Positions 1,394-3,585 of a stretch of DNA of 10,270 nt are shown one piece after another. The position numbers and the translations under genes are program-made. Below the pieces are notes generated by a model. It was not told the origin of the DNA and ran no database searches. It was given only the letters and a program-made list of their open reading frames with translations. Within the stretch, counting starts at the first letter, position 1. Every line of letters begins with the position of its first letter. The stretch is from Candidatus Tectimicrobiota bacterium (GTDB lineage: Bacteria; JACPSX01), in the NCBI GenBank assembly GCA_016193065.1, contig JACPSX010000181.1, positions 1 through 10,270 on the forward strand. The letters run 5' to 3'.

Positions 1394-1485
1394 ACGGGTC
1401 CTTCCCTGATCATTTCTGGTTTCACACGCTTCTGTCCACCCGCTGCCACCGGAAGTCGTCCGAGTCTCCCTTGGGGAATGTTCAT
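1390..1485 (-). CDS. Possible 31-residue bridging ORF between the MetE-like and MFS genes
   Basis: A short frame of 31 codons plus stop fills almost exactly the gap between its neighbours. Its ATG overlaps the TGA of the MetE-like gene as ATGA (1482-1485), and its own TGA overlaps the ATG of the MFS gene as ATGA (1390-1393). The peptide is basic and glycine/proline-rich, begins MNIPQGRLGRL and ends EGPV; there is no membrane segment or recognisable domain. The MFS ribosome binding site GGAAGGA lies inside this frame. It could be a real small protein, or a frame whose translation carries ribosomes from one gene to the next. A frame this short can stay open by chance in GC-rich DNA; the two 4-nt overlaps are the only specific support. 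Confidence 0.3.
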   Translation of the reverse strand: MNIPQGRLGRLPVAAGGQKRVKPEMIREGPV

Positions 1486-2525
1486 GCCGGCTGGGTGACT
1501 GCAGCGTGGATTTTGAAGAGGTCCGGAACGTCTTTGCTGGCATAGCTGCGGCCGATGCCGCACTCAGTGGCCACGGCGAAGTCGGAGACCACCTTTTGCG
1601 CGGCCGCGATCCGCTTCCTGGTGCCCTGGACTCCGTCGGTATTGTGCACCAGCCCCAGGACCAACTCTGTTTCCGGATGCAGCTTAAGGTTCTTAAGGGG
1701 CGCGAAGTAGGCCTCATCGCTGCGGTCTTTGGGCACCGGCATGTGGATCCAGGCGATCGGGCGCTTGACTGCGGCCGAGATTGCATTGGCGAGAGCCACC
1801 ATCTTGCCGCTGTCCTCGGGCTCAATGAAGTGTTTCTTGTTCAAGTCGCCGTAGCAAAGGTGAAAGCCAAGCTGGACGTCGTCCGGAATCGGCTTGGAGA
1901 TGCGGGCCAACCGCTTGACGATCTCGTCCTCCGGGTTCTGCCAGGGGGACTTAAACAGCCGGCCGTCGTAAATGACCATCTCGCGGCACACGTCCCACTG
2001 CATAGCCAGCTCGTTGTGGGGGATCGCGGCCAGGATTCTTTCGACTTCGGCCATCATGGCCTGCTCGTAGGCAGGCTCGACCTTGAGTTGGTCGGCAAGC
2101 GTCACGTAGGCGTGGATCGGCGCAACCGGCGTTGGGAGGGAGACTTGGAACCGGCAGCGAACCGGGATCTTGCCGGCCTCCTTGGCCCGCTTGAAGTCGA
2201 AATACGAGATTCGGGCCTCCCGGGAGTAGCCGAGCTCCGGAAACTTCAGCTCCTCCGGCTTCACCCCGGGCCTGAGCCGCACAGGAGTCAGGGCGCCGGG
2301 ATGCTGGCCTTTCTCCGTCTCCGTCACTTCCAGATCGGGATGGACCCGGAAGAGGGCATACTGGTAGCTGATCCACCCCCGCCGGGGCCCGGGCTCCCCA
2401 TCAGGCAGGCGTTGCAGCCGGTCGCCGAGAATCGAGCCGGCCGTCTCGAACACCTCTTGCACGGTGCTGAGATTGACGCTGCCCACCAGATGAACGTGGC
2501 GCGGAGTATTTTGAGACGTCGTCAT
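1482..2525 (-). CDS. MetE C-terminal-like (cobalamin-independent methionine synthase / UROD-fold) protein
   Basis: A 347-residue protein resembling the catalytic C-terminal TIM barrel of cobalamin-independent methionine synthase, without the N-terminal half of MetE (full MetE is over 700 residues). The motifs run in MetE order: HLVGS near 12-16 and RLPDGEPGPR at 39-48 (N-terminal strand region), QWDVCREM at 176-183 (MetE-like QxD), FHLCYGD at 221-227 (zinc His-x-Cys), WIHMPVP at 259-265, VHNTDGVQGT at 293-302, and ATECGIGR at 319-326 (second zinc Cys region). His222, Cys224 and Cys322 sit where MetE has its zinc ligands; His261 appears where MetE has a glutamate. By family it should activate a thiol for methyl transfer, but members of this short branch are mostly uncharacterised and the substrate is unknown. 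ATG 2525 is preferred because GGAGG lies 7 nt upstream; a longer TTG start at 2579 lacks this. It leads the operon with the MFS gene and the molybdenum hydroxylase subunit. Confidence 0.7.
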   Translation of the reverse strand: MTTSQNTPRHVHLVGSVNLSTVQEVFETAGSILGDRLQRLPDGEPGPRRGWISYQYALFRVHPDLEVTETEKGQHPGALTPVRLRPGVKPEELKFPELGYSREARISYFDFKRAKEAGKIPVRCRFQVSLPTPVAPIHAYVTLADQLKVEPAYEQAMMAEVERILAAIPHNELAMQWDVCREMVIYDGRLFKSPWQNPEDEIVKRLARISKPIPDDVQLGFHLCYGDLNKKHFIEPEDSGKMVALANAISAAVKRPIAWIHMPVPKDRSDEAYFAPLKNLKLHPETELVLGLVHNTDGVQGTRKRIAAAQKVVSDFAVATECGIGRSYASKDVPDLFKIHAAVTQPA

Positions 2526-2550
2526 TGGTGTGCCTCCATTGTTTGGTAGG

Positions 2551-2579
2551 AATTTGCTTTCGGCAGCAGACAAAGTCAA
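2551..2579 (-). promoter_or_regulatory. Candidate sigma70-type promoter for the MetE-like operon
   Basis: Read on the minus strand, TTGACT (2574-2579) is followed after 17 bp by CAAATT (2551-2556), about 25 bp upstream of the MetE-like start. The -35 box is good (5 of 6) and the -10 is poor (3 of 6). It lies just outside the left end of the small mobile-element-like region, so it survives the insertion. Inference only; the short leader leaves room for little other control. Confidence 0.35.
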
Positions 2580-2581
2580 GG

Positions 2582-2594
2582 GATTTCTCGGTCT
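2582..2594 (+). repeat. Left copy of flanking direct repeat (putative target-site duplication)
   Basis: The 13-base word GATTTCTCGGTCT occurs here and again, identical, at 3026-3038, directly outside the inverted termini. The last T is shared with the inverted terminus, so the duplication is 12 or 13 bp. Two identical 13-mers 444 bp apart in the same orientation are very unlikely by chance. Confidence 0.65.
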
Positions 2595-3025
2595 TGCCCA
2601 CTCCCACTTTTGCGACAGTATAGTGGTGAGGCCGCCCTCCCGCCCTTCGCTGCACGCCTCCCGCAGCGGACCCTTACGGGGCGCCCAGGGTGGGAACCCT
2701 CCGCTACCGCCACGTTAAATGCTTGGCTATCTGCAAGCAAGTCTAGGCTGCGCGGTTTCCCATCCCTGGCCGCTCCCGGTGCGGGTACCCGCCTTGCGGG
2801 TGTTGCGCTGCTCCCGGCAGTTGCGCTCAGGGCGGGAAGGTCGGCCTCTGGTTCTCTTCCTCCGAGGGGTTGCCCCCGCAGGCGATCTAAGCGGTTGCGA
2901 GGAAGAGAACTCTCAATCTGGCCGACTCAATTCACGCCGCAAGCGCTTCGTGAGCCCAAGGGGGCAACCCGAGGAGTGGATGAGAGAGGGTAACAATTCC
3001 TCGGTAACGAAGTGGGGGTGGGCAA
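2594..3025. mobile_element. Small MITE-like element: 16-bp terminal inverted repeats, 12-13 bp flanking direct repeat, no transposase
   Basis: This 432-bp stretch fills the gap between spmB and the MetE-like gene and holds no gene I can support. Its left end TTGCCCACTCCCACTT (2594-2609) and right end AAGTGGGGGTGGGCAA (3010-3025) are inverted copies with 15 of 16 bases matching. Immediately outside lie identical direct repeats GATTTCTCGGTC (2582-2593 and 3026-3037); the next base, T, also matches. Terminal inverted repeats plus a 12-bp duplication are what a transposition event leaves; duplications of 10-12 bp are known for IS4-family elements, but I cannot name the parent. The interior is unusually rich in inverted repeats: agcgga/tccgct at 2665/2700, agggt-ggga-accct at 2687-2700, the 12-bp palindrome at 2781-2792, a 12-bp perfect stem at 2851-2862/2899-2910, and 10-bp and 7-bp pairs further right. 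Long plus-strand frames cross it but have no domain and extend antisense into spmB. Confidence 0.6.
2841..2925. repeat. Long imperfect hairpin with two inner hairpins (three-way junction) inside the element
   Basis: A perfect 12-bp stem pairs GTTCTCTTCCTC (2851-2862) with GAGGAAGAGAAC (2899-2910). It extends, after an asymmetric internal loop, with TCGGCC (2841-2846) pairing GGCCGA (2920-2925). The 36-nt loop can fold into two further hairpins: GGGG-TTG-CCCC (2866-2876) and CCGC/GCGG (2876-2879/2891-2894), which share one base. As DNA it could be a cruciform or transposase-recognised structure; as RNA, a folded branch in either orientation. I recognise no known RNA family. Confidence 0.5.
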
Positions 3026-3038
3026 GATTTCTCGGTCT
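3026..3038 (+). repeat. Right copy of flanking direct repeat (putative target-site duplication)
   Basis: Identical to 2582-2594. It lies 8 bp downstream of the spmB stop codon (reading the minus strand). Removing the element plus one copy would leave the ancestral spmB to MetE-like spacer about 70 bp long. Confidence 0.65.
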
Positions 3039-3045
3039 GGTAAAG

Positions 3046-3585
3046 CTAGGGTCCAAAGACAAGGCGGCAGATGATCAGGGCGGCGATGAGGCTCACCAGA
3101 TCGGCGAAGAGTCCGGCCAGTACGGCATGCCGCGCCTTCTTGATTCCCACTGCGCCGAAGTAAACGGCCAGGACATAAAAGGTCGTCTCGGTGCTGGCAT
3201 AAGCCGTGGCGGCCAGGCGGGCGATGAAAGAATCCGGGCCGTGGGTTTTGACCAGTTCGGTGACAATTCCCAGGGAACCGCTGCCGGAGAGGGGCCGCAT
3301 GATGGCCAGCGCAAGTATCTCCGCGGGCATTCCGACGCGGCTCAATACGGGATCCAGCCAGTGCGCCAGCAAGTCGATGGCCCCCGCTCCTCGCAGCATT
3401 CCGACGGCGATCAGGATCGCCACCAGATAGGGGATGATGCGCACCCCGACTTGAAATCCCTCCTTGGCCCCCTCCACAAAACTTTCATAAACTTTCACTC
3501 CGCGACATACGCCGTAGAGAGGGATGCCGACCAGGAAAGCCGGGATGGCCCACAGAGAAACAAAGCCGATCGCATTCTGGATCAT
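3046..3585 (-). CDS. spmB: SpmB-like nucleoside-recognition (Gate) domain membrane protein
   Basis: A 179-residue, very hydrophobic protein matching the length and motifs of SpmB, spore maturation protein B. Characteristic stretches are IPYLVAILIAVGMLRGAGA (about 51-69), MRPLSGSGSLGIVTE (96-110) and ASTETTFYVLAVYFG (130-144), the conserved core of the Gate / nucleoside-recognition fold. In Bacillus, SpmA and SpmB are needed for spore core dehydration; in non-sporulating bacteria the pair is common, is often fused, and its transported substrate is unknown. The ATG at 3585 overlaps the spmA stop as ATGA, so the two are translationally coupled, with GGGAAAGG just upstream as ribosome binding site. 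The open frame extends further upstream, but only within spmA. It is last in its operon: immediately downstream comes the small mobile-element-like region. Confidence 0.85.
   Translation of the reverse strand: MIQNAIGFVSLWAIPAFLVGIPLYGVCRGVKVYESFVEGAKEGFQVGVRIIPYLVAILIAVGMLRGAGAIDLLAHWLDPVLSRVGMPAEILALAIMRPLSGSGSLGIVTELVKTHGPDSFIARLAATAYASTETTFYVLAVYFGAVGIKKARHAVLAGLFADLVSLIAALIICRLVFGP

Follow-up and report, generated by a model that had tools for sequence, protein, structure and literature searches.

TnGBS/ISLre2 elements (p-MULT 3) and part of the ISKra4 group (p-MULT 4) insert upstream of sigmaA promoters, a targeting termed atypical among prokaryotic elements; for TnGBS the distance to the -35 hexamer is 15-17 bp with a peak at 16 bp, and contact with the RNA polymerase initiation complex has been proposed (Guerillot et al. 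2014, PMC3942029). ISAjo2 of the IS1202 family keeps a fixed distance to another protein-binding site, lying 5 bp from the XerC site of pdif/dif, and contact between transposase and host protein has been proposed for it as well (PMC10132070). A survey of the IS4 family described strong target-arm specificity in some members and left promoters unmentioned (De Palmenaer et al. 2008, PMC2266710), and ISTth2, which is filed in the IS4 family, IS10 subgroup, appears in a Thermus IS survey that makes no mention of promoters (PMC6352166). A full-text literature search, incomplete in its coverage, returned no report of promoter targeting in IS4. Since such targeting has been published only for the Mutator superfamily and no IS4 report was found, the insertion upstream of promoters described here is a known behaviour in an unrelated transposase family.

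Here we describe a MITE family with IS4-type autonomous relatives that shares with TnGBS/ISLre2 and the ISKra4 group a fixed short distance upstream of the sigmaA -35 hexamer and, with those p-MULT elements that have near-symmetric ends, insertion in either orientation. The p-MULT elements have a Mutator/IS256-superfamily transposase, other ends and, for TnGBS, a distance of 15-17 bp, whereas here the transposase is IS4-type, with a distance of 13 bp and a 10-bp target duplication. The present element works like the p-MULT elements without being a member of that group, as the parent transposase is not of the Mutator type. With the IS4 family at large it has in common a DDE transposase with the Y2R3E6K motif and duplications of about 10 bp, but the parent transposase falls below the NCBIfam cut-off for transpos_IS4_2. 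ISAjo2 and the IS1202 family resemble it in the fixed distance and differ in both transposase family and target.

The element lies in a 10,270-nucleotide stretch of DNA from a Candidatus Tectimicrobiota bacterium (the window), where an initial annotation had placed a 432-bp MITE-like element at 2594-3025. Comparison with family copies set the ends as C...G (CTTGCCCAC...GTGGGCAAG), and the element therefore spans 434 bp with a 10-bp target duplication. The features of the locus are as follows.

2593-3026, no strand: MITE (non-autonomous IS4-type element), 434 bp, recognised by inverted repeats, a 10-bp duplication and ~50 related loci with differing duplications
2593-2609, plus strand: left terminal inverted repeat CTTGCCCACTCCCACTT, identical to the right end at 16 of 17 positions; family consensus CTTGCCCACCCCCAGTT
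3010-3026, minus strand: right terminal inverted repeat CTTGCCCACCCCCACTT (minus-strand reading)
2583-2592, no strand: target-site duplication, promoter-side copy, ATTTCTCGGT, identical to 3027-3036; length of 10 bp fixed by perfect family duplications
3027-3036, no strand: target-site duplication, distal copy, ATTTCTCGGT
2574-2579, minus strand: TTGACT, the targeted promoter's -35 hexamer, at a distance of 13 bp to the element end, in agreement with the family-wide +13 signal
2551-2556, minus strand: putative -10 CAAATT after a 17-bp spacer, weak (3/6), at the same offset as the family-wide TAnnnT
1482-2525, minus strand: MetE-like ORF behind the targeted promoter, with an ATG after a GGAGG ribosome-binding site
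2861-2975, no strand: interior hairpin module, found elsewhere as separate copies too; double compensatory changes in 7 of its 27 predicted pairs

The inverted repeats reported in the initial annotation are real, but they extend over 17 bp with 16 matches rather than 16 bp with 15. The flanking direct repeat GATTTCTCGGTCT is likewise present and exact over 13 bp (2582-2594 and 3026-3038); what had been read as a 12-13 bp duplication is a 10-bp one, the length in perfect-duplication copies from other genomes, and the remaining three bases are chance identity between the element ends and the flank. In none of 200 dinucleotide shuffles did an inverted repeat of at least 12/17 arise between the copies of a 10-bp direct repeat. 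As had also been noted, the element holds no transposase, and its interior is strongly folded (z = -6.7). The feature that the annotation missed, and the most unusual one, is the fixed position upstream of promoters.

The window element belongs to a family of about 50 loci in the host genome (2.9 Mb in 294 contigs, 86% complete), a MAG that is the sole representative of its phylum among the genomes compared. Searching with the element gave 47 matches at ~40 loci, with 78-95% identity over parts, and end-pattern searches added ~12 further loci that share mainly the ends. Paired copies carry different 10-bp duplications (for example CGATCCGTCC, YTTCATCTGA, GAWGCAAATG and CTTTTTWAGG), bearing out the earlier guess of a dispersed family. 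The copies range from ~64 bp (C15:3617) to ~450 bp, their interiors are mosaics of modules, and many contigs terminate within a copy, as expected where a repeat breaks assembly. At one locus (C169:2181-2223), a pair of element ends facing in opposite directions is separated by ~9-10 bp, which would fit insertion of one element next to another with a single duplication-sized spacer in common.

One interior module, the ~115-bp hairpin, is found both within MITEs and on its own, in copies with no recognisable MITE ends close by (for example L027:1501-1615, L030:1486-1600 and L094:1090-1205). Its double compensatory changes include GC to CG at columns 33/90 and CG to GC or AU at columns 34/89; such changes could stem from an RNA, from a DNA cruciform or from arm-to-arm repair. 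The initial annotation had suggested that the family might supply terminators or regulatory RNA, an idea that found no support in a terminator scan of 2500-3100, which returned no terminator-like site, or in an Rfam search of the element, which returned no match.

Reading outward from one end of the host copies, the 10-bp duplication is followed by 3 bp (often CC), TTGACA, 16-18 bp and TAnnnT, which places the -35 hexamer 13 bp (the duplication plus 3) from the element end and the -10 hexamer 16-18 bp further. Either end can face the promoter, and the element is found in both orientations. Among 48 host ends with at most two mismatches to the end pattern, TTG stood at +13 in 18, compared with 0-3 at any other offset, and at least 5/6 of TTGACA stood at +13 in 14 (p 9e-22). 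The -10 signal (T36 A37 T41), which played no role in selecting these ends, peaked at +36. A minority of copies had no promoter at the visible end. In the window, the minus strand carries TTGACT (2579-2574) and CAAATT (2556-2551) ahead of the MetE-like ORF (2525-1482); a generic consensus promoter scan did not call this putative -10, and the ORF had no Pfam match at 1e-4 and no relatives when its protein was searched in the genome contigs. A longest-ORF strand test of the downstream genes was uninformative (29/47, p 0.14), probably blurred by shadow ORFs in GC-rich DNA, and Pfam was therefore used instead. Pfam families of ordinary host genes matched 17 of the 19 ORFs behind targeted promoters, including rpsT (ribosomal protein S20), ribF (riboflavin kinase/FAD synthetase), rsmE (RNA methyltransferase), dacA (D-Ala-D-Ala carboxypeptidase), anmK (AnmK) and an ECF sigma factor.

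The same position recurs in more than a dozen other MAGs beyond the host and RBG_13_61_14, a deltaproteobacterial MAG described below. Scanning one genome per species with the pattern TGTCAA-N13..15-TTGCCCACYCCCA gave 31 loci, which belong to MAGs of Deltaproteobacteria, Nitrospinota, Acidobacteria, Troglogloeales and others, and the same gap length occurred in 30 of them though three gaps were allowed. Matches to the bare end pattern in IMG/VR (L112-L114) lacked both partner ends and promoters and were set aside as chance. Because the pattern scan itself demanded TTGACA, we assembled an independent set of 30 copies of a ~137-bp MITE from RBG_13_61_14, chosen by DNA similarity alone. TTG was at +13 in 27 of these 30 copies (27/60 flanks), and in 21 the hexamer there agreed with TTGACA at 5/6 positions or better (p 7e-34). 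Perfect 10-bp duplications flanked many of the copies, and TAnnnT occurred at 35-37 in 19/30 promoter flanks versus 2/30 opposite flanks. When the sets were pooled, TAnnnT followed TTGACA by 16-18 bp at 32 of 57 element-adjacent sites versus 25 of 153 sites elsewhere in the same loci (p 4e-8). Where the hexamer was poor beyond TTG, most copies nevertheless kept a -10; L147, L153, L154, L162 and L173 have TAnnnT at 16-17 bp.

An autonomous relative was found in Acidobacteria bacterium 37-71-11 (L137, 924-2785), where an 1861-bp copy with the family ends is flanked by a perfect 10-bp duplication (GTCCGCGCCC), has TTGACA at +13 and encodes a 454-aa IS4-type transposase together with a DUF6788 ORF. 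This transposase contains the Y(2)R(3)E(6)K motif (YRERMQVEQGFRDLK), and residues D160, D226 and E332, assigned by motif, are spaced by 65 and 105, which fits D(60-110)D(100-150)E. It matched PF01609 (DDE_Tnp_1) at 5e-11, above cut-off, and NF033591 (NCBIfam transpos_IS4_2) at 2e-35, below the curated cut-off; no ISKra4, ISLre2 or IS256 model was returned by the Pfam and NCBIfam scans. The parent transposase is a single ORF, a hallmark in the IS4 survey, and the additional DUF6788 ORF adjoins it both in L137 (2329-2745) and in L204 (74-430), a second copy that encodes the IS4-type transposase and has family ends on both sides.

Homologues with 40-61% identity were recovered when the transposase alone was searched in 396 genomes of the L137 phylum. 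L207 has related ends (CTTGCCGCCCCCCAGTTTT), a perfect 10-bp duplication (ATCAAACGCC) and TTGACA at +13; the hexamer is at +13 in L208 and at +12 in L206, and L203, L204 and L205 have no promoter at their single visible flank. Three further genomes (G056, G048 and G043) contain transposase fragments whose ends are those of the family or nearly so, and all the gene-carrying copies with MITE ends that were found code for an IS4-type transposase. One locus (L177, G056:C62) is a 1.2-kb transposase-bearing unit with TTGAC at +13 outside both ends; its duplications do not match, which would fit a joining of ends that came from two separate insertions.

These copies confirm the IS4-type parent that had been proposed from the long duplication, and the window element is confirmed as a MITE: it is short, has inverted repeats and no transposase, occurs in multiple copies with distinct duplications, and has autonomous relatives with the same ends. 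Full-length elements sharing those ends were found in other genomes (L137 and L204) and none in the host assembly (86% complete), where a search for an IS4-type transposase gave no hit. Multicopy IS are frequently missing from MAGs. The parent transposase was absent from viral contigs and its DNA from plasmids. The only transposases found in the host genome belong to IS1380-like and ISKra4 elements, both with other ends; on contig C242 (L062, 367-1779 and 1950-3780), an IS1380-family transposase gene adjoins an ISKra4-family element, and the latter has inverted repeats GGGTGTGCGACAAATTTGTGG, a 9-bp duplication (CAGCCATCT) and no TTGACA at +13.

The nearest named plasmid relative is ISTth2 of Thermus, whose transposase is 30% identical to that of the L137 parent. 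Each of the eight distinct Thermaceae plasmid sites examined for the ISTth2 group shows TTGACN at +12 or +13, counted from one of the two ends. ISTth2 shares the fixed TTGACN position (the duplication plus 3 bp), the YREK motif and a 9-10 bp duplication with the present family, but it is autonomous, has unrelated inverted repeats (CTGAGCTCTCATCACTTT) and shows no DUF6788 ORF. To judge from these sequences, promoter targeting does not seem to require the DUF6788 ORF. IS4_2 relatives from Klebsiella (L193) and from Chlorohelix, Chloroflexota (L195), were not beside promoters, and the trait is therefore confined to part of the IS4_2-like transposases. The L193 element (1293-2604, Klebsiella michiganensis plasmid) lies in a palindromic, terminator-like site (CGCTTAATAGCG...GGGCTTTTTT), which suggests that other members of the IS4_2 transposase group use other structured targets.

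Taken together, the MITE is very probably mobilised in trans by an IS4-family transposase and inserted at a fixed position upstream of the sigma70 -35 hexamer. In the mechanism we propose, a cut-and-paste IS4-family (DDE, YREK) transposase, encoded by an autonomous form that shares the ends and has a small DUF6788 ORF besides, would act in trans on the MITE and join both ends to the target with a 10-bp stagger, producing the 10-bp duplications. The choice of target is non-random: whichever way the element is turned, strand transfer would take place between 3 and 13 bp ahead of the -35 hexamer of a sigma70 promoter, so that both hexamers survive the insertion and the duplicated segment would correspond to about -39 to -48 relative to the transcription start. 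Sigma region 4 and alpha-CTD bind close to this segment. The site could be found via promoter-bound RNA polymerase, which the transposase perhaps contacts, or by reading the -35 DNA; the likely benefit would be a safe landing site outside coding DNA, and the host copies would have been moved by a parent now missing from the assembly. Whether an IS4 clade reaching from uncultured Acidobacteria, Deltaproteobacteria and Nitrospinota to ISTth2 independently evolved targeting of the upstream face of RNA polymerase-bound sigma70 promoters, at ~-49/-39, is in our estimate evenly balanced.

The serious rival to polymerase-guided insertion is that the transposase reads the -35-like TTGAC as a DNA motif and gene insertions are lost, with RNA polymerase uninvolved. 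We consider this quite possible though short of probable: TTG at +13 is nearly invariant among the similarity-selected copies, CC frequently precedes it, and direct reading combined with loss of harmful insertions could yield much the same pattern. Such reading fits less well with -10 hexamers being far commoner beside elements than at other TTGACA sites, or with the TAnnnT kept by the poor-hexamer copies, although selection against gene insertions could explain part of this.

A Mutator-superfamily mover of the ISKra4/ISLre2 type would bring known insertion upstream of promoters, and elements of the ISKra4 type can adjoin promoters upstream in both orientations (PMC3942029). This appears very improbable here, since the ISKra4-family element in the host genome (C242) is a single copy with ends and a 9-bp duplication unlike those of the MITE, and the gene-carrying copies with MITE ends are all IS4-type, with no Mutator-type model in the NCBIfam scan. 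It is also hard to credit that insertion was random and that selection alone retained copies upstream of promoters; intergenic retention of IS copies is common, but a permissive intergenic region would not be expected to give a one-base-sharp +13 peak across unrelated genomes, and recent copies should show a spread of -35 distances where only 12-13 bp, rarely 15 bp, was observed. A non-mobile regulatory or structural repeat (REP/BIME-like or an RNA gene) with coincidental end repeats would suit the modular, strongly folded interior and the compensatory changes in one hairpin, but it is extremely unlikely given the different target duplication at each locus, the autonomous relatives with the same ends and the lack of an Rfam match.

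With insertion by an IS4-family transposase as the preferred reading, the same geometry in an IS4 lineage means that promoter targeting probably arose more than once, and promoter-upstream targeting can now be compared between unrelated transposases. In one genome, dozens of structured spacers now stand immediately upstream of the promoters of ordinary host genes, put there by the modular MITEs, and for uncultured phyla the elements serve to pinpoint likely promoters in a genome to the exact base. As the trait reaches ISTth2 of Thermus thermophilus, a culturable model, the question of polymerase contact is open to testing.
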